NCBI GenBank assembly: GCA_003165595.1
Contig: PLWQ01000009.1
Coordinates: 141,516-205,515 of the forward strand
Direction: 5' to 3'
DNA from: Fibrobacterota bacterium
GTDB lineage: Bacteria > Fibrobacterota > Chitinivibrionia > Chitinivibrionales > FEN-1185
Length of the DNA: 64,000 bases
Below are positions 49,601 to 59,433 of this stretch, piece after piece. The notes below the pieces were generated by a model. The model had not been told where the DNA came from. It saw nothing but the letters and a program-made list of their open reading frames with translations, and did not search any database. The position numbers were made by a program, and so were the translations under genes. The first letter of the stretch is position 1; each line of letters opens with the position of its first letter.

Positions 49601-50308
49601 TTACTCGACCTGTTGTGGCTGATTCGACGCATAGGGCGGGACACGGGTGTTGAACATCACAACCATTTCGCCCTTTGGCGTCTTTTTTGAAAAAACCGCG
49701 ATCAGGGCCTGCGGCGTTCCGCGAAGAAATTCCTCGTGCATCTTAGTGAGTTCCCGAGCAATCACCACCGCCACGTCCCCGAGTATTTCATGCATGTCAT
49801 GGAGAACCTTGAGAATGCGGTATGGGGATTCGTAGAAGACAACAGTTCGAGGCTCCGCCTTCATTTCCTCGAAGAACCGCCGCCTGCGGCCGCTCTTGAC
49901 GGGAAGGAAGTTCTCGAATATAAACCTGTCGGTGGGAAGGCCGCTGCACACAATCGCCGCGATGGCGGCGCAGGCGCCCGGCACAGGCACAACCAGAATT
50001 CCTTCCCGCACCGCTTCCCGCACCAGGTAGAATGCCTCATCGGCGATTCCCGGAGTGCCGGCATCGCAAATGATTGCAACATCGCGGCCATCCTTGATCA
50101 TTGAAATAATGCGAGGAGTCGTCTTCTCCTTGTTGAAATCGTGGAACGCCACGAGGTCGGGAGCCGCTCCAATATGGTTGAGCAGCACCCGCGAGTGTCG
50201 CGTGTCTTCCGCGAGCACGGTGGGAACAGCGGCAAGCACTTGCTTTGCGCGCACGCTGATGTCGTCAAGGTTGCCTATGGGGGTAGACACGACGTAGAGG
50301 GTGGCCAT
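49601..50308 (-). CDS. rsmI: 16S rRNA 2'-O-ribose C1402 methyltransferase
   Basis: 235 residues of the SAM-dependent RsmI family in the tetrapyrrole-methylase fold. Typical blocks are LYVVSTPIGNLDDI, VLAEDTRHSRVLLNH, ICDAGTPGIADE and FYESPYRI. It methylates C1402 of 16S rRNA with RsmH. Its start shares one base with the stop of the C25 protease (TGATG), so it is the last gene of the lpxK-to-rsmI unit. Its 3' end runs to within a few bases of the 49.5 kb repeat. Confidence 0.96.
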   Translation of the reverse strand: MATLYVVSTPIGNLDDISVRAKQVLAAVPTVLAEDTRHSRVLLNHIGAAPDLVAFHDFNKEKTTPRIISMIKDGRDVAIICDAGTPGIADEAFYLVREAVREGILVVPVPGACAAIAAIVCSGLPTDRFIFENFLPVKSGRRRRFFEEMKAEPRTVVFYESPYRILKVLHDMHEILGDVAVVIARELTKMHEEFLRGTPQALIAVFSKKTPKGEMVVMFNTRVPPYASNQPQQVE

Positions 50309-53300
50309 CAGTACCCTTCAAGCTTTGCGATGCGGATAATGGCGGTGGCGCTTTTCGAACCGTTTTTCACCGACAGCTTGGCATAGTATGTTCCGTTTGC
50401 AATGCGGTAGCCTTGGGAAGTTTTCCCATCCCAGGGAACCTCCTGATACCCGATGATCCCGGTGTTGTTCTGCCATGACCAGGCTACCCGGCTTCCTATA
50501 GTGTACACGACAATCGACGCCGACTGCGCCACATCCGTAAGAAGGAAAGCAAAACGGATTGTCTGAATCGTCTTGCCGGAATTGTCTTGCTTTGCCGTAA
50601 AGGGGTTCGGATGGCATGAAAAATTCTTGATAGTGAGGTCTTCGCCGGGCAAGAAGGCGAATGTCGTCACGGCCACGTTGCCCGCGAAATCTTCGGCCAT
50701 CACTGTCAGAGAATCGACATTCGATTCCTTTTTCGGGTATGCCGTGCACGATATCTGAGTCAAATCCGATTGCACGGGGATATGCGACACGAGCGCGGTG
50801 TCGAGGCTTTTCTTGTCGAGCAACACTCTAACGGAAGAGGGGACAATGGCGGAGGCGTCCGAGAGAAACAAGTTGAAGGGCTTACCCTTGGCCGCGTAGT
50901 CCAGAAAGGTGAGGTTGCGACCGTCTACGGATGCCTGAATTTGCGGCGGCTGATTGTCGGAAAGCAATCCGAGAGCAAACGGACCGCTTCTTGTAGCGTG
51001 CATCACGCATTTCATTTTGGCCGAATCTGCAGAACCGGGCTCGCTGCGCCAGGCATTAAGAAGCGAATCGAAGAGCAGCACCCGAAGCCGCGCGGTGGCG
51101 GGGTAGGCGGCAAGACGTTTTGCGGTGGGCAGCGTGCTGTCGCGGGGAGAACGATAGAATGTCCATGCCAGGCTGTCTGCGGCCGAAAGTGCCGGCCGCG
51201 ACCACACAATGAACCGCGACACGGAATCGTCGGAAAGCGGCGTCCAGTACGATTCGGTCCGAAGCGGGTGCTGAAGCGCGATTGTGTCGGCAACAAGGAA
51301 GATGCGGCGCCTGGGTGCAAGCGTTGCCAAAGGAGAAACACATACCGTGTGCCCGGCCGCGCACAGCGTATCGGCGCTTGTGGCCATGTCGGCACGGGCG
51401 AGGCGGACGCTGCGACGCGCGATGTTGTTGTCGCGGGAGATTTCGTCAAACGAACCAGACGGGTTGGCAATTGCTGTTATCTGTAATGTCCCCTGTGTAT
51501 CCGGAAGCGCGACCGAAAAGGGTTTCGTCTTTCCAGGCAGCAGGGAGTCTGAAAAAAGTATCGTCGCTAGCGGCTTTCCCTGCACGGATGAGCCGATGTA
51601 GAACGTCACCCCGAATGGGGGTGCACTGGCATTGCCGCCATTGAGGATTTGACACTGTGCAAACAGGGAGTCGTTGTACCATACAACGTTCACGCCGCTC
51701 GGCGCAAACATAAGATCCGGCCTTCCAAGAATTGTAAATGCATATATGTCGGTGGTGTCTGAAAATCCGTTTCCGATCACCCTGAATTTTACAAGCAGCT
51801 CGTCTCCCACCATGCCGTTAAACGCAATGGGAATCCTTGCGTTGGTTCGCCAGGTACCCGTACTGTCGGCAAACATCGAGATTCCTTGGAAAGACGGATT
51901 CGTCACGTACCGTGGTATCACCGAATAAAGACACAGCACCGCGTCGGCCTTTCGCGAACTGTCGAGTATTTCAATTGTTGTCGAAACGTTTACGCTGTCG
52001 CCATAGTGGACCGGTGCAGGCGAAACTGCTACGTTCCGGAATAGGACCGTACTTTTCGAAAATGTCGAGGAGCCCCGCAGTTCTTGAGAGTCGTTCCAGG
52101 CAAATGCTCTCACGAGGCCGCGGGATGTCTTGAGGGAATCCTTGACGGGACACACGCCACGAATGGAGTCGGAGCGAACGTCCCAGGAAAACTGGTTCCA
52201 GGTGAGAAAATCGGCGCCCAGTGTTACCCTTGCCTGGCCACTCTGAATCGGCGCGCAATATCCTCGCACAGAAAGAGTGTCCTGCGGCCGCATCGCGGTT
52301 TTCCCCACGGTGAGCCGAAGAGAATCCGGAGCAAGCGCCCACGGCAGCGCCGGGTCGCCCAGAAAATTGTATTCCCGGACAAGCGCGGTGAATTCCGTTC
52401 CGAATCTAACGAGCATATTCATCTTCGCGTACGAAAGCAGATCGCCCACGCTCTCAAAGCTCCCGGCTACGGCATTCTGGAGCATAAGTCGATTCATGAT
52501 CAGGTTCCCGCGTTTCGAGGTGTATGCCGAAGCGCCAAAGAAGCCGACGCAACCGTTCTTCTTGACGCGAAGGAATTCTTCCCCCAACGACTGGTAGTCG
52601 ACGCTTTCGAAATCTGCGGTGAGGCATGTAAAGCTGAATACGATCGGCAGCCGCCCGGCGCGGTCCCATTGTCCATTGTAGAGTTTGTCGAGATCGGTAT
52701 AGCTAAAGAACTTACTGTCGGACCACACCAGCCCGCCGCCGTGGCCGTCGAAATTGATGGCGTAGACGCCAGCGTTAATCAACCCGGCCAGGTCTGTGGA
52801 CGCGTTTGACTGGTCGTGATAATAGCGTGATTGCGGATCACCGTCCAGGCGGTACACGTTCATGGCCGGGCCAATGACCTCGGTCTGGGTATTGTCGTTG
52901 AACGCGGTAAAATCGCTTTCCGCGCCGCCGACAAGCAGAAGGTTGTCGTGCCAGGGTCCGGATGCACGTTGCGTCAGGTACCCGACAGTCTTGGACACTA
53001 TGTTCTGCAGCTCGGTCCGGTTTTCGGCGGGGAAACGGCCCACGTTGATATCAGGGAAATCATCGTCACTCAAAAATGCGGCGAAATAGCCGTCGTCCGA
53101 GGCGGGCCCCCAGCCGGGCACGCCGCTGAGATGCGTGGGGACGATATTGCGACCGCGGTTGACTTTGTCGAGGTCGTAGGAGGTGTCGCCGCCGAGCAGA
53201 AGATAGCGGGGGTGTTTTGTGGCCGACAGCGAGAAAACGTACCGGAGAAACGTTCGAATGGCTTCCGGGTCCGCAATGCCGCCGGAAAAGGCGTTATAGA

Positions 53301-55068
53301 CATCCGAAATGTCGGCGAGCGCGACGGTCCAGCCTTTCTTTGCATAGGCGTTGACAAAAGGTTTAAAGTCGTTAAAGAAACTGTCCACGGTAACAACGAT
53401 ATAGTCGGCCTGAGCGAAGCCGCTCCAATCGCGACGGACAGTATCGAGAGACATATCGGCTGGAGCGAGCCGCATCGATACGTTCTGCGCAAGGAAAGAA
53501 TGCACCGTTGCAAGGCTGTCCTGGAACACGAGCGAATAGGACGGCTTCCCGCCGACGCTCGCGCTTTGCACGGTAAACCCGGTAAAGAGGCGGAAATTGC
53601 CGATGTCCCACAAGTCAAACGAACCCGACGAGAACCCCTTGACCTCAAACTGGTAGATACCATTGACATCTGCGCCGCTGTTCTTGAAAAGCAAATGGTC
53701 TTTGTCGGCGGTAAAGTTGCGGTAGTATTCAATTTCGATCCAGTTGAGTGCCGACAGGTCCGGATAGGTTGGCACCTTCTGGCCGCTGCCGTTGGGCACT
53801 CTGTTGAACGTGATCTTGTTGGTGTCGTTCTGGAATAATGACGATGGAAACGGCGAAGAAACAAAATCGAATTTACTCTGGCCATCCCATTCCGCGATTT
53901 GTTCCTGCCCTCCCGGCGAGTTGTCGTTGAGGTAGATATACAAACGGTGGTTTGGAGACACCGACGCGACGTTGGTCATTCCTTGAAAACGGATGTGCAA
54001 ACGCGCGGTGAGGGAGGGATCCGTGGACGTAGTCGGGGAAGGAATATCAAGAGTGAAATTGGTAATTGCGCTGGCGCCGATTATGCCCCAGTACCAGTTG
54101 TCGTCAAGATTCTGCGACGAATCGCCTATTTCGCTCACCGCATTGACGTTCCCCAGAAACAGCACCAGGCTATCCTTTTCCAGGTGCAGGGTATCGTAGA
54201 ACTCGTGCGCAAGGATTTCCGTTGAGGTCCCCTGACTATACACGGTTGCATCTTTTCGCTGACCGCCAGAAGTCTCCGCCACGCGGATTCCGGGCGCACC
54301 GCCTTCCCATGTGAGCCAGTACACGTTCGTATTTGAGAATTGAGACAGTGACGTGCCTGATCCTCGTAAGAACTTGCCGTAGAACATGATTATGTCGTTA
54401 TCCTGAAGAACAGCATGAAAGTTGTTTGAAACGTAAAGGGGCACTTCAACGCCGCTGTTGTAAAGCTTGTAGACAGAGCCGGGGATTGTTGCGATGGGAA
54501 CACCGAGCTTCCGCAGGGAAGCCCCGTTGATCTGATAAATTCCGTCCTTTTCGACCGAGACCTTTACGCCTCTCGAAAAAATGGTGCCTGGTTGGGGCGT
54601 AGCAAGCGATTTTGCGAGGCTCGTGAAAGTACCGAGATAGACAACGGAGTTCTTGATATATGCTTTGGACCCGGCCAGCGCACCCGTACTCGCAGTGATG
54701 GTGATGGTCCCATTCGCAATTGCTATCTTGGGGCCTTTGCCCGCTTGTCTGTATGGCGAGAAAGAAAACCATTGGAGAAAACTTGAGCCGGCCAACCCTT
54801 TGTGGACCAACGACGCGGGCATGACTGTGTGCGAATTGGCGAAAGAGTCGGACTGAACCCGAAGGCTCAGCGTCTGGGTCGGGGAAGATGATACTGCGAG
54901 GATAAAGGAAGACTGCTCAGAAATATGCGCAACTTCGAACTTGTCAAGGCTAAACCCGATGCTAACTGCGCTGGTTGTCGCGCTGCGGATCGAATAGGAT
55001 ATCGCGCGGGTCGGCGACGCAACGGACAATGCCCACCAAATTGCGACAAGAACGATTCTACCTTGCAT
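50308..55068 (-). CDS. Giant gingipain-type C25 cysteine peptidase, PorU-like
   Basis: 1586 residues, exported by a Sec signal (about 1-22). The C25 caspase-like catalytic domain lies at about 560-930, with catalytic His about 776 in NFDGHGGG and Cys about 815 in FSFTCLTADFE; LLGGDTSYDLDKV and GRFPAENRTEL are family landmarks. A CARDB-like Ig domain follows (about 1120-1215), and the C-terminus (about 1505-1586; VPWDGKTSQGYRIANGTYYA) is a FlgD-type beta-sandwich. PorU, the sortase of type IX secretion, is a C25 enzyme of similar layout that cuts C-terminal signals; a surface protease of the gingipain type is the alternative. It starts 11 bases inside the upstream lipoprotein gene with AAGG before the ATG. 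Confidence 0.9.
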   Translation of the reverse strand: MQGRIVLVAIWWALSVASPTRAISYSIRSATTSAVSIGFSLDKFEVAHISEQSSFILAVSSSPTQTLSLRVQSDSFANSHTVMPASLVHKGLAGSSFLQWFSFSPYRQAGKGPKIAIANGTITITASTGALAGSKAYIKNSVVYLGTFTSLAKSLATPQPGTIFSRGVKVSVEKDGIYQINGASLRKLGVPIATIPGSVYKLYNSGVEVPLYVSNNFHAVLQDNDIIMFYGKFLRGSGTSLSQFSNTNVYWLTWEGGAPGIRVAETSGGQRKDATVYSQGTSTEILAHEFYDTLHLEKDSLVLFLGNVNAVSEIGDSSQNLDDNWYWGIIGASAITNFTLDIPSPTTSTDPSLTARLHIRFQGMTNVASVSPNHRLYIYLNDNSPGGQEQIAEWDGQSKFDFVSSPFPSSLFQNDTNKITFNRVPNGSGQKVPTYPDLSALNWIEIEYYRNFTADKDHLLFKNSGADVNGIYQFEVKGFSSGSFDLWDIGNFRLFTGFTVQSASVGGKPSYSLVFQDSLATVHSFLAQNVSMRLAPADMSLDTVRRDWSGFAQADYIVVTVDSFFNDFKPFVNAYAKKGWTVALADISDVYNAFSGGIADPEAIRTFLRYVFSLSATKHPRYLLLGGDTSYDLDKVNRGRNIVPTHLSGVPGWGPASDDGYFAAFLSDDDFPDINVGRFPAENRTELQNIVSKTVGYLTQRASGPWHDNLLLVGGAESDFTAFNDNTQTEVIGPAMNVYRLDGDPQSRYYHDQSNASTDLAGLINAGVYAINFDGHGGGLVWSDSKFFSYTDLDKLYNGQWDRAGRLPIVFSFTCLTADFESVDYQSLGEEFLRVKKNGCVGFFGASAYTSKRGNLIMNRLMLQNAVAGSFESVGDLLSYAKMNMLVRFGTEFTALVREYNFLGDPALPWALAPDSLRLTVGKTAMRPQDTLSVRGYCAPIQSGQARVTLGADFLTWNQFSWDVRSDSIRGVCPVKDSLKTSRGLVRAFAWNDSQELRGSSTFSKSTVLFRNVAVSPAPVHYGDSVNVSTTIEILDSSRKADAVLCLYSVIPRYVTNPSFQGISMFADSTGTWRTNARIPIAFNGMVGDELLVKFRVIGNGFSDTTDIYAFTILGRPDLMFAPSGVNVVWYNDSLFAQCQILNGGNASAPPFGVTFYIGSSVQGKPLATILFSDSLLPGKTKPFSVALPDTQGTLQITAIANPSGSFDEISRDNNIARRSVRLARADMATSADTLCAAGHTVCVSPLATLAPRRRIFLVADTIALQHPLRTESYWTPLSDDSVSRFIVWSRPALSAADSLAWTFYRSPRDSTLPTAKRLAAYPATARLRVLLFDSLLNAWRSEPGSADSAKMKCVMHATRSGPFALGLLSDNQPPQIQASVDGRNLTFLDYAAKGKPFNLFLSDASAIVPSSVRVLLDKKSLDTALVSHIPVQSDLTQISCTAYPKKESNVDSLTVMAEDFAGNVAVTTFAFLPGEDLTIKNFSCHPNPFTAKQDNSGKTIQTIRFAFLLTDVAQSASIVVYTIGSRVAWSWQNNTGIIGYQEVPWDGKTSQGYRIANGTYYAKLSVKNGSKSATAIIRIAKLEGY

Positions 55069-55804
55069 ACAGCCTTCTTACCGCCATGGACTGGGCATTG
55101 AGCGCCGGCACTTCCAATTTGATTGCCCAGGTATATCCGCCGGGCGACAGGGGAAACAGCGATGCGGGGATTTGGTTTGCCGACTGCACCGTATCGCCCT
55201 GGTAGGAATAGACGGGCACGATTGGCTGCGGCGCGCTCCATAAGAGTCCAGCCGTGTCACCGTAGAGCATCGAATATGTGTAGTACCCCGCCATAACGGA
55301 TGTCACATACCATACGAGGGAGTCATTTGAAATGGTATCTGATTCGACCGGACTCACAGGAATGGGCTGCCACGCGAGTACCAGGGAATCGATGGCGCTT
55401 GTGTCGCTGGTTCGGCCGACAGAGTCGATAGCGAACATTTGAAAGAATATGGTCTTGTACGAAAGCAGACCCGGGAACCCAACGTTGTCCGCGTTCTCAT
55501 GGTAGTCGAAAACGTTGCCGGGAATCGACCGTGCCAGCAAGGTGAAAGAGCTGTCACCCATAGTCTTCTGAAAAATCACAAATTCCCTTACGCCAAGCGA
55601 ACCGTTGGCAGGCATCTGCCAGCGTACATGAATGGCAGGCCGGAATCCGGGAGTAGACTGGAACGAAAATGCGTCCACGCCGACTTGTGTTATGATCGGA
55701 GCCGTGAGCGTCGCAGGAGGGAACGGTTCCGGCGAGGGGCATGACCCGTCCATCAGGAGCGCGGCCAAAGGAGCGAACAGGAGCACTCGGGCTCGCAGTT
55801 TCAC
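55058..55804 (-). CDS. Lipoprotein with Fn3-like domain
   Basis: 248 residues. The N-terminus VKLRARVLLFAPLAALLMDGSC has a lipobox and should be lipid-anchored. The rest is beta-rich with an Fn3-like stretch (PAIHVRWQMPANGSLGVREF) and no enzyme motif. The GTG start overlaps the ruvX stop by 4 bases (GTGA) and has GAGGGA before it. Its end overlaps the start of the C25 protease by 11 bases, so the two products are probably made together. A T9SS outer-membrane partner role is possible but inferred. Confidence 0.75.
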   Translation of the reverse strand: MKLRARVLLFAPLAALLMDGSCPSPEPFPPATLTAPIITQVGVDAFSFQSTPGFRPAIHVRWQMPANGSLGVREFVIFQKTMGDSSFTLLARSIPGNVFDYHENADNVGFPGLLSYKTIFFQMFAIDSVGRTSDTSAIDSLVLAWQPIPVSPVESDTISNDSLVWYVTSVMAGYYTYSMLYGDTAGLLWSAPQPIVPVYSYQGDTVQSANQIPASLFPLSPGGYTWAIKLEVPALNAQSMAVRRLYAR

Positions 55805-56211
55805 TGTGATTCCCTCATGTATTCCTCGAGGATGAGGCATGCGGCAACTTTATCGGTATTACCCTTGTTTTGCCGGTACTTTCTCTTCCGATATCGAATG
55901 ATAACATTGGCACGTTTCGAAGTCAAACTTTCGTCCACAAAATGAACGGGGAGCCCGGTCATCCGACCGAGTCGGACTGCAAAGGCACGGATTTCCTGCG
56001 ACATTACGGTTTCGCCGCCATCTTCATCGAGGGGAAGCCCAACCACGATCTGGGACGCCTGTTCCCGCTTGGCTGTGCCGCAAAGGGAGTCGAGGTACTG
56101 CGGAGTTGTTTTCCTATCGAGTGTGGGAAGGCTTCGAATGAACTCGCCGTTTTCGTCGGTTATCGCGATGCCGATTCTTCGCTGTCCATAATCAACGCCG
56201 ATGAGCTTCAT
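55801..56211 (-). CDS. ruvX: Putative Holliday junction resolvase / pre-16S rRNA nuclease YqgF
   Basis: 136 residues with the RNase-H-like fold. The catalytic acidic residues are Asp7 in VDYGQRRIGIA, Glu in VDESLTSKRA and Asp in TDKVAACLILEEY. ATG 56211 lies 20 bases inside the end of the upstream gene; the frame is open to 56415, but the extra 68 residues match nothing. The family processes 16S rRNA 5' ends, which would fit the presence of rsmI at the end of the same unit. Confidence 0.93.
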   Translation of the reverse strand: MKLIGVDYGQRRIGIAITDENGEFIRSLPTLDRKTTPQYLDSLCGTAKREQASQIVVGLPLDEDGGETVMSQEIRAFAVRLGRMTGLPVHFVDESLTSKRANVIIRYRKRKYRQNKGNTDKVAACLILEEYMRESQ

Positions 56212-57973
56212 CAACGGTTTTCGTCCATTCCATGAGAATTTCGAGCGTGGAAAGATCAACGTTCTTCGTCTGGCTTGTTTTGTCAAGCACGAAGTGGAAA
56301 TGACCTTTCTTGAGATTGAGCATTTCGAACACCGCTTCCCGGCCCTGCTGCGTTTGTGTCGCGGCGTAGGAGAGCCGGCCCTGTTCAAAGTATATGAGCC
56401 CAAAGGGCTTGTCAATTACGACATAGAGACAGCCGGTCTTGCTGCCGATCTCAATGAACTGCATCACTTCAATCAGGCTTCCTTGTCCTATTTCTCCTCC
56501 GAGAGCGGATGTTTCAACGCTCTTTCGGATCGATTTTGTTCCTGTCAGCGACATAATGAGGGGAGTCACCAGCCTGAAGACATCCCTGTCGGAAAATGCC
56601 ATGCCGAGAAAATGAACATTTTGCATGGCGGCGCGTTTTGCTAGGGTTTCGGCGCCGGGAACATTGTAGAAAATGACGAGGATATCCGAGGCGGACCGTT
56701 TGGTCGCAATTGTTGATTCAAGGAAGGAGAGAGCGTTGTCCTCCACCTGCCAGTCGATCACGATGACGTCAGGCACGTAGTGCGCCAACAGGCTTGCGGC
56801 ACGTTCGAACGTCGATGCCGTTTCGATCTGGAAACCAATCTCGGAGAAACATTTCGACAGGGTTGTTGTCGTGTCGGTAAGAGAATACTGAATCTGCTTT
56901 TCCGATTTGGCAATTACGAGAAGATCCTTCTTGACCGCAACTTTCCGCATCGGCTTTGTTCGAAGCGAAATGACGATCAGGAGAATCACCAGGCCGAGCA
57001 AAAGGACTCCCACTCCGCCCAGGAGCGCAAATAGAACAATCTGTGGAATTTTTGTCGTTGCAGGAGGGGTATCCACGATTCGTCCATAGCGACGATCCAC
57101 CCATCCGACGTGCGCGCCAAACTGGATTTTGCACCATGACGTGCCCGCGTAAAGGAGCGGGTAGCACTCGCTGTTTCGCGCGATACCTAGAATGGGAGAT
57201 TCCGGGCTTACGGATGCAAGAATTCTTGCCGGACTCTCGGTAATCTCGAAAAACTTCTGGCCTGTTCCCTGCTGGCCGGCCTGATTATCACCGGATTGCG
57301 ATTTTTCGGAAAGGGACTTGGCCTGCTGCAAAGGCTGGATGGAACGGGAGACTGCGCCGGCAGACCCCTCGGACGCCAACGCCGGACCTTCTTTGCTTGC
57401 AGGAATAGGCATAACGGAAGCCGGAGGAAGGTCCACGGTGACGTTGAGCGGTCTCTTCTGCTTACGAGGGCTTTTCCTTTGTGTCGTCTCCCCGGAAGTT
57501 TCCTGTTTCTCCTCAGGACGCGAAGGGGCGTTTTCAACGACAGGTTGCTCCTTCGGAATTTCCTGTGCGGAATTCTGCGGTGCAACAGGCGGTGCGGCAA
57601 TCTTTGAAGGAGCCGGAACCTGCGGCGGTTGGGGAGGAGGCGGGGAAGCGGACGGTTGGCTTTGCTTTGCCGGTTGCGGCGCGGCTGGCGGAGGCGTTGC
57701 GGCGGAGCCGGCTTCGACAACTTCGACATTGGCCTGGAATATCCATCCGATGCTGCCCTTGAAGTCTACGTTGAACCAGTCGCCCTTTTTGGTTATGACT
57801 TTGCAGCGATCACCCTTCTTGACCATGCCCACCAGCTTGGCGTCGCCGTAGGGCATGAGCATCACCCTCGCAATATCCTTGTTCACCACAACATAGCTGT
57901 TATCGGCGCCGGAATTGGCAAAAGCAAATAGCAGGAAAGCTATTGTCGTAAAGGATAGTCGAGGGTGTTTCAT
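56192..57973 (-). CDS. SH3-membrane-pseudoreceiver-DUF4388 fusion protein
   Basis: 593 residues, an unusual envelope-to-cytoplasm architecture. A signal/anchor at 1-23 is followed by a first SH3-like domain (about 25-88; KKGDRCKVITKKGDWFNV ... GWIFQANVEV), a long Pro/Gln/Ser-rich linker (about 90-245) and a second SH3-like domain (about 250-310; GWVDRRYGRI). A membrane helix (about 318-345) leads to a receiver-like fold (about 355-470) and a C-terminal DUF4388/PATAN domain (about 480-593; GSLIEVMQFIEIGSKTGCLYV ... GRLSYAATQTQQGREAVFEML). In the receiver the Asp of VIVIDWQ remains, but the acidic pair is gone (LLVIAKSEK), so phosphorylation is doubtful. It starts 9 bases after the SH3-membrane gene. 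Confidence 0.85.
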   Translation of the reverse strand: MKHPRLSFTTIAFLLFAFANSGADNSYVVVNKDIARVMLMPYGDAKLVGMVKKGDRCKVITKKGDWFNVDFKGSIGWIFQANVEVVEAGSAATPPPAAPQPAKQSQPSASPPPPQPPQVPAPSKIAAPPVAPQNSAQEIPKEQPVVENAPSRPEEKQETSGETTQRKSPRKQKRPLNVTVDLPPASVMPIPASKEGPALASEGSAGAVSRSIQPLQQAKSLSEKSQSGDNQAGQQGTGQKFFEITESPARILASVSPESPILGIARNSECYPLLYAGTSWCKIQFGAHVGWVDRRYGRIVDTPPATTKIPQIVLFALLGGVGVLLLGLVILLIVISLRTKPMRKVAVKKDLLVIAKSEKQIQYSLTDTTTTLSKCFSEIGFQIETASTFERAASLLAHYVPDVIVIDWQVEDNALSFLESTIATKRSASDILVIFYNVPGAETLAKRAAMQNVHFLGMAFSDRDVFRLVTPLIMSLTGTKSIRKSVETSALGGEIGQGSLIEVMQFIEIGSKTGCLYVVIDKPFGLIYFEQGRLSYAATQTQQGREAVFEMLNLKKGHFHFVLDKTSQTKNVDLSTLEILMEWTKTVDEAHRR

Positions 57974-57982
57974 GGCGCGCTG

Positions 57983-58354
57983 TCATACTTCAACGGCTTT
58001 TTGTTTGTAAATGTACATCGACACACCGACGAGTGTGCCCAGGAGAAGGATGACGAAAACAAAGAATGTCCCCAGAGGAAGATATTGAGGATTGTTTACT
58101 ACGACGCCGGCCTTTTGTTCAAGCCAGCCGACTTTGTCTTTGATCTTTATCTGATACCAGGATTTGCCTTCATACACAAGCTCGAAATGATCGCCCTTCT
58201 TTGCGACGATAATAACATTTGATTTGGGATCCAAAAACTCATATACATTGACAAAGGGATTCTTGATCTCCACATACTTTGCGGCGGCATTCGAAGCGGA
58301 GTAGGAGACTAGCAGGAAGAAGAAACTTAGAAGCGAAACTGTCAGCTGCTTCAT
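57983..58354 (-). CDS. Small SH3-like membrane protein
   Basis: 123 residues: signal peptide (MKQLTVSLLSFFFLLVSYSASNA), one SH3-like domain (about 30-85; AKKGDHFELVYEGKSWYQIKIKDKVGWLEQ) and a C-terminal membrane helix (about 95-116) with a short cytoplasmic tail. The layout equals the N-terminal sensor part of the next gene in miniature. ATG 58354 has AGGAGG eight bases before it, and the start overlaps the lpxK stop. A tandem duplication that later gained cytoplasmic domains is a reasonable origin. Confidence 0.82.
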   Translation of the reverse strand: MKQLTVSLLSFFFLLVSYSASNAAAKYVEIKNPFVNVYEFLDPKSNVIIVAKKGDHFELVYEGKSWYQIKIKDKVGWLEQKAGVVVNNPQYLPLGTFFVFVILLLGTLVGVSMYIYKQKAVEV

Positions 58355-59433
58355 GTACAATACCTCCTCTTAGGGATGTATGACTGTATTAAATCGTTCA
58401 AATGCTCAAAGAAACTCTCTCGCGACGGACCATCGGCGAACGATACATCTATTTTAAGATACCAAATATCCGGGCCATTTACAAGTTTTATGGTGCGCAA
58501 TCTAAAGGCATCCTTTTCGGTGGTGACAATGCCGTCGCATTGCACCCCGTACAGCCCTTCTATCTCATTGATCGTGAAGACATGATGGTCGTCGAAGAAA
58601 TGCGAAGCGCATGGCCGGATGCCCATATCTGCAAGGAGCATCGAGAATCGATCCGGCCGCGCTATTCCCGACAGCAGCAGGGGGCTTCTGAAGGGCAAAA
58701 TCTTGGACGTCTCGCCGGTGCCAAGTTTCCGCCACTCACGGGGAACCTGAAACAAGACAAATATGCCTTTGCCCGGAAACTGAAGCTGGAGTTTTTCCCG
58801 AGTACGAATGCACGCATGCTTTTCTTGCATGCTGCCGATGATGCAGATGAAATTCGCGCGTTTCAAATTGACAAGCGGCTCACGAAGCGTTCCCGCTGGA
58901 ATGAGGCTGTCCGCAAAGGGGTCCGGCGGAATGCACACAATATCCGCCGTCCGTTTCACTTGCCGGTGCTGAAAGCCGTCGTCGAGGATAAACATGGTGT
59001 TGCGGGGAACAAGATTGCACAGGTCGCGGGCACTCTTGCGTCTGCTGGAACATATCCCGAGCCACGATTGCGGCAGGGCCTCGTGAAGCAGGGCGGGCTC
59101 GTCGCCAACCTGGCTCCACGAGACGGGCTCGCCGGGTTTACAAATTACCATTTCCTTGCGAGCCCTGCCATAACCTCTGCTGAGAAAGGCCACAAAATAC
59201 CCTTGTTTCACCAATTGCCGGGCAACGAAGAGGCTCATGGGGGTTTTCCCGGTACCGCCCGCATGAACGCCACCCACGCTGATCACCGGTCTCCCGACTT
59301 CCTGAGAAAGCGCGGCAATGTTGTCGTAAAGGAAGTTCCTGAGAGACACCACGCCCTCGTAGGCCGACGACAAAACACGTGGCAGCGCTCCATTGCCAAA
59401 AGGTCGCAATCGGATTTCATGTGCGATATTCAC
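58351..59433 (-). CDS. lpxK: Tetraacyldisaccharide 4'-kinase
   Basis: Phosphorylates the 4' position of the lipid A precursor at the inner membrane, showing that the organism makes lipid A. The 360-residue protein has the P-loop VGGVHAGGTGKTP and FILDDGFQHRQVKRTADIV, with DDGFQH as the LpxK signature; the substrate-facing N-terminus is intact. A GTG at 59433 is preferred (GAGAG six bases before it); a TTG one codon upstream is possible. First gene of the unit that runs to rsmI. No other lpx gene is in the window. Confidence 0.94.
   Translation of the reverse strand: MNIAHEIRLRPFGNGALPRVLSSAYEGVVSLRNFLYDNIAALSQEVGRPVISVGGVHAGGTGKTPMSLFVARQLVKQGYFVAFLSRGYGRARKEMVICKPGEPVSWSQVGDEPALLHEALPQSWLGICSSRRKSARDLCNLVPRNTMFILDDGFQHRQVKRTADIVCIPPDPFADSLIPAGTLREPLVNLKRANFICIIGSMQEKHACIRTREKLQLQFPGKGIFVLFQVPREWRKLGTGETSKILPFRSPLLLSGIARPDRFSMLLADMGIRPCASHFFDDHHVFTINEIEGLYGVQCDGIVTTEKDAFRLRTIKLVNGPDIWYLKIDVSFADGPSRESFFEHLNDLIQSYIPKRRYCT

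Follow-up and report, generated by a model that had tools for sequence, protein, structure and literature searches.

Within the stretch of Fibrobacterota DNA analyzed here, referred to as the window and spanning 64,000 nucleotides, the functional unit of a tightly packed seven-gene cluster is, on the evidence of gene order, a pair of genes that encode a lipoprotein and a long protein of peptidase family C25 (hereafter the cassette). We favour, with some reserve, the view that this pair acts together with a PorV-like shuttle, encoded elsewhere in the genome, as a second sortase-like surface complex made up of the long C25 protein, an FN3-type lipoprotein and the PorV-like protein. What leads to this view is the kinship of the C25 protein with PorU, its invariant histidine and cysteine, its placement in a clade of its own, its constant pairing with the lipoprotein, and the co-occurrence of the PorV-like gene. 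Together, the cassette and this outer-membrane gene suggest that the surface protein-processing machinery exists in a second version, for the most part uncharacterised; the points of greatest interest are its lipoprotein partner and the fact that genes at separate loci are lost in concert. To our knowledge, nearly all that is known of type IX secretion comes from Bacteroidota, with a single sortase. If several FCB phyla possess, in addition to PorU, another sortase-like lineage with a barrel and a lipoprotein of its own, lost as a set, surface attachment would have parallel routes; the finding yields a concrete three-gene set to test.

Table 1. Genes of the seven-gene row and sites within the C25 protein (positions in the window)
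Feature	Position	Strand	Basis or role
rsmI, 16S rRNA 2'-O-methyltransferase	49601..50308	-	TIGR00096, 227 bits, above cut-off; neighbour
Long C25 protein, 1586 aa	50308..55068	-	PF01364, E 4.8e-70; NF033707, 256 bits
C-terminal domain of C25, residues 1441-1586, putatively type IX CTD-like	50311..50748	-	FlgD_ig match
Catalytic Cys815 (TCLT) of C25	52624..52626	-	invariant; alignment to PorU/gingipain
Catalytic His776 (GHGGG) of C25	52741..52743	-	invariant; alignment to PorU/gingipain
Lipoprotein, 248 aa, GTG start, predicted tandem FN3-type fold	55058..55804	-	Cys22, structure model; C25 partner
ruvX/yqgF	55801..56211	-	PF03652, 119 bits; neighbour
SH3-TM-degenerate receiver-like-DUF4388 protein, 593 aa	56192..57973	-	SH3_3 and DUF4388 above cut-off; neighbour
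SH3-TM protein, 123 aa	57983..58354	-	weak SH3_3 match; TM 97-115; neighbour
lpxK, tetraacyldisaccharide 4'-kinase	58351..59433	-	TIGR00682, 153 bits, above cut-off; neighbour

The long C25 protein comprises a signal peptide, a PorU-like N-terminal region, the C25 catalytic domain, a CARDB domain and an FlgD_ig-like C-terminal domain, and it belongs to peptidase family C25 with 237 bits against a PF01364 gathering score of 23. His776 and Cys815 are invariant in 17 orthologues, the former aligned with the GHG motif of PorU and the gingipains and the latter with the TC of PorU and the AC of the gingipains. The match to the PorU model NF033707 spans residues 168-932 and includes the N-terminal region, the best sequence match in the PDB is PorU (6za2), and Foldseek ranks the same entry first for a structure model of residues 22-935 (mean pLDDT 75), the alignment covering 877 columns although the TM-score over the whole is low, at 0.41; taken by itself, the catalytic domain is closest to gingipain R (Z 40). 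At its C terminus the window protein scores weakly against FlgD_ig (19.4 bits, cut-off 27); orthologues in three genomes (G006, G026 and G019) exceed this cut-off, and that at L124 exceeds the one of TIGR04183. The C-terminal domain has a mean pairwise identity of 58%, compared with 56% for the catalytic domain, and such conservation would suit a domain that remains on the protein and has a binding partner better than one that serves as a throw-away signal; it is probably retained.

The preliminary description had set the enzyme beside the PorU-type C25 enzymes, which holds in so far as the protein is PorU-related and a type IX system is present, as indicated by SprA translocon matches in 60 of 60 relatives (57 above the cut-off), but the protein is not the genome's canonical PorU. 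There are four C25 genes in the source genome, two of which score 508 and 474 bits against NF033707 (cut-off 420), compared with 256 bits for the window protein; this difference, and a clade separate from canonical PorU, led us to reject the window protein as the genome's PorU and to regard the 508- and 474-bit genes as the candidates. The two candidate canonical PorU genes of the source genome (G000) lie on C41 (L054) and at C14:122591-123700 (L055), the related genome G001 having given one, and a possible propeller protein was noticed by eye near canonical PorU at L054:462-2705. A tree built from 80 C25 domains separates canonical PorU from the long C25 proteins, each group being a clade with support of 100/100, and places all long C25 proteins of Fibrobacterota in a single clade (100/99); the tree entry CAN_L221 duplicates the gene L161, and its label as canonical is wrong. 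Full-length relatives at 23-28% identity were found in records of KSB1, Calditrichota and Neomarinimicrobiota in a scan of named genomes, and the long C25 proteins form a well-supported PorU-like clade shared with these phyla and distinct from canonical PorU. A C25 protein above the PorU cut-off is also present in 18 of the 19 long-C25 genomes of other groups; G075 has none. The long C25 proteins therefore share with PorU the C25 domain with its histidine and cysteine, a related N-terminal region and a C-terminal domain, but differ from it in length (~1550-1690 aa compared with ~1350), in falling below the NF033707 cut-off, in coexisting with a canonical PorU and in being paired with an FN3 lipoprotein.

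The long C25 gene of KSB1, Calditrichota and Neomarinimicrobiota is followed by a PorV/PorQ-type gene, often with a 4-base overlap, and such a neighbour is a further point of likeness to PorU; in many cases a gene for a lipoprotein of ~250 aa with FN3-like sequence comes next. The PorV-like proteins of these loci score 65-101 bits against NF033709 (cut-off 90). The arrangement recalls NCBIfam's putative PorU2 (NF052324) and PorV2 (NF052325), likewise a second PorU-like and a second PorV-like protein, to which our proteins give partial matches; the scores, however, fall well short of the cut-offs (the window C25 protein reaches 177 of 450 bits and those of the other phyla 163-254; the PorV-like protein of the source genome reaches 39 of 325), no lipoprotein family is named there, and the Fibrobacterota barrel gene is unlinked. 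A literature search that covered few subscription journals found no paper on PorU2, PorU paralogues or a type IX FN3 lipoprotein. At three of the loci in KSB1 and Calditrichota (L142:2869-3654, L144:8342-9145 and L163:4403-5212), a CdaA-type diadenylate cyclase gene, with DAC and CdaA_N matches above cut-off, lies just upstream, giving the order cdaA, long C25, PorV-like, lipoprotein. A further clade (100/100) of C25 proteins of ~1900 aa from the same two phyla (L153, L155, L156, L158 and L159) is encoded next to a glycosyltransferase family 4 (WecA/MraY-type) gene, with a DUF92 membrane protein gene downstream in L158.

The lipoprotein of the window is taken to start at GTG 55804 because of its 4-base GTGA overlap with ruvX, and the longer reading frame from ATG 55840 was rejected. 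Its lipobox Cys22 follows a signal peptide and is invariant in 19 sequences, the -3 position not being canonical, and its structure is predicted as two FN3-type domains (pLDDT 90.5) that match known FN3 domains at Z ~12, so that the FN3 fold is well matched at the level of the predicted structure. Searches of 167 genomes of the phylum place the lipoprotein gene beside the C25 gene in all 19 genomes of the order in which that side of C25 is assembled; G002, whose contig starts inside C25, was left out of the count. No Pfam or NCBIfam model covers these lipoproteins above its cut-off. Comparison of the Fibrobacterota group with that of the other phyla by profile gave E 3.5e-9 over 164 columns, which could reflect general FN3 similarity; as such similarity is common, the constant position of the gene is the stronger argument.

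The main rival to a sortase-like complex is that the C25 protein is a dedicated gingipain-type secreted protease with its own barrel shuttle, the lipoprotein serving as inhibitor, chaperone or surface holder. The protein resembles the gingipains RgpB and Kgp, which are C25 peptidases and cargo, in its catalytic fold, for which gingipain R is the best fit, in its histidine and cysteine, and in its putative CTD-like end; moreover, loss of the module leaves the number of CTD proteins unchanged. We nevertheless hold this explanation to be somewhat unlikely, since the PorU model match takes in the N-terminal region, PorU is the best match of the whole structure model, and the C-terminal domain is unusually conserved, while a single, deeply conserved copy with dedicated partners, one of them PorV-type, is more typical of a system component than of a cargo protease. 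A sortase-like complex, which we prefer, would resemble the PorQ-PorU-PorV-PorZ attachment complex in joining a sortase to an outer-membrane barrel at the surface, and would differ from it in the FN3 lipoprotein partner.

As the preliminary description had stated, the seven genes are all on the minus strand and every junction is an overlap or a gap of at most 9 bases; its title, which spoke of two rRNA genes, is to be read as two rRNA-related genes (ruvX/yqgF and rsmI). From lpxK to rsmI the junctions are an overlap of 4 bases (ATGA) with the SH3-TM gene, a gap of 9 bases to the SH3-DUF4388 gene, and overlaps of 20 bases with ruvX, 4 bases (GTGA) with the lipoprotein gene, 11 bases with C25 and 1 base (TGATG) with rsmI, and a gap of ~150 bases separates prmC from lpxK. 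Neither promoter-like (5 compared with 6.7 in shuffles) nor terminator-like patterns (12 compared with 14.5) are in excess in the region, and the internal signals that would have spoken against a single unit are thus no more frequent than chance provides. The same gene order and strand recur in relatives of the same order, which public records name Chitinivibrionales, Chitinispirillaceae or Fibrobacter sp., although their C25 proteins are only 34-43% (about 40%) identical to that of the window; contigs that extend far enough mostly show DUF1385-prfA-prmC upstream of the row. Since the 20-base SH3-DUF4388/ruvX and 11-base lipoprotein/C25 overlaps are also repeated in many of these diverged relatives, the packing is more than chance, and the row is an old, operon-like arrangement.

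The cassette is nonetheless separable from this row. G001, a 96% complete genome of the same genus, has lpxK, both SH3 genes, ruvX and rsmI in order, with 63 bases from the ruvX stop to the rsmI start and without the lipoprotein and C25 genes; G030, G036 and G037 have the same junction, and G010, also without the pair, has two small unrelated genes in the slot (L099:10382-11111), which by eye resemble a nucleotidyltransferase/HEPN pair. On a tree of lpxK, the SH3-DUF4388 gene and ruvX from 29 genomes, the presence of the cassette requires five independent changes, each of them imposed by branches with good support, and we read these as losses because G041, from another family of the phylum, carries the cassette in the same slot. 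Conversely, elsewhere in the phylum, L227 and L228 carry the pair next to rsmI and yield no lpxK, SH3 or ruvX match, and L223 has it with none of the lpxK, SH3, ruvX or rsmI neighbours. As the row persists without the cassette and the pair exists without the row, the unit is the pair, and lpxK and the SH3 genes its neighbourhood.

These gene losses bear directly on the earlier proposal that a single module couples lipid A synthesis, through lpxK, and SH3 envelope sensors to cargo processing by C25. Tight junctions and an order conserved within the order would suit it, as would the linkage of Porphyromonas cargo to A-LPS (PMC10202324), but the arrangement of lpxK and the SH3 genes is unaltered where the cassette is absent, the pair occurs without them, and the partner that co-varies with the pair is a PorV-like gene at another locus; we therefore consider such coupling very unlikely and reject it as an argument from gene order. 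Lipid A may still have a biochemical role, but neither the cassette-negative genomes nor the pairs elsewhere in the phylum lend it support by gene order, and lpxK is probably just a neighbour. The earlier interpretation holds in part: the lipoprotein does belong with C25, and the third partner lies outside the window.

This third partner was found with a profile built from the PorV-like proteins of the other phyla and run against 20 cassette-positive and 20 cassette-negative genomes of the order. One strong match (100-171 bits) was obtained in 18 of the 20 positives, the two exceptions being only 68% and 77% complete, and in none of the negatives, where nothing exceeded 49 bits. In the source genome the gene lies at C39:17981-18955, unlinked to the cassette, and its product scores 62 bits against the PorV/PorQ family NF033709 (cut-off 90). 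It belongs to a conserved locus, M23 peptidase-yjbQ-PorV-like-fliN-like-hldD, from which it is missing in cassette-negative genomes: G001, G012 and G037 retain yjbQ and the genes that follow, and G036 and G004 retain other flanking genes, so that two unlinked loci change together. The cassette and the PorV-like gene co-vary in 5 of 5 independent pairs, a number that cannot give p < 0.0625, and a Fisher test that ignores kinship gives p 3e-9; lipoprotein, C25 and PorV-like genes are thus well supported, at the level of genomes, as a three-part genetic unit. To the idea that the joint absence is an artefact, produced by genomes that are reduced or incomplete and have shed many surface genes together, we give almost no weight, for although several negatives are small (genus g4, 2.0-2.9 Mb), several assemblies incomplete and many of them fragmented, all three genes are lacking from G001 (4.3 Mb, 96% complete), G010 (100%), G030 (98%) and G037 (5.5 Mb, 99%), with both slots read and flanking genes present in G001 and G037.

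In the known system, cargo reaches PorU on PorV; PorU cuts off the CTD and joins the cargo to A-LPS, which PorZ supplies (PMC10202324), and other CTD types are served by dedicated barrel shuttles (PMC12618676). By analogy with both we propose a second attachment complex, and we infer in the same way the type and activity of the C25 enzyme, its surface location, its substrate and its acceptor. The C25 protein would be exported by way of Sec and the translocon SprA, would keep its conserved C-terminal domain and would be held through it at the surface by the PorV-like barrel; the FN3 lipoprotein, as anchor or accessory, may fix or present the enzyme or its substrate at the outer membrane, and C25 would cleave or transpeptidate a small set of substrates. 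That a whole cargo class is lost with the cassette was rejected, since CTD counts are alike in G000 and G001 (TIGR04183, 106 compared with 110, with only 150 candidates scored in these two genomes and G026; FlgD_ig, 31 compared with 30), and absence of the module without fewer CTD proteins suggests that the substrate set is probably small. The lines of natural loss, for instance two members of one genus, are places to seek the missing substrate. More speculatively, and with considerable doubt on our part, the three proteins could form a second type IX attachment route in several FCB phyla, one that attaches selected proteins not to A-LPS but to some other acceptor, perhaps the lipoprotein or a glycan that it holds.

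As for the neighbours of the cassette, LpxK, RuvX and RsmI each exceed curated cut-offs, and together with the SH3 genes they are an inherited neighbourhood that is probably co-transcribed. The SH3-DUF4388 protein is conserved across the order; it has one transmembrane segment (317-335), a DUF4388 domain at its end and between them a receiver-like part that is below the Pfam cut-off (Response_reg, E 0.09 only), in which, by eye, the acidic pair is missing but an Asp remains close to where phosphorylation usually occurs. Such a protein could carry an envelope signal into the cytoplasm.
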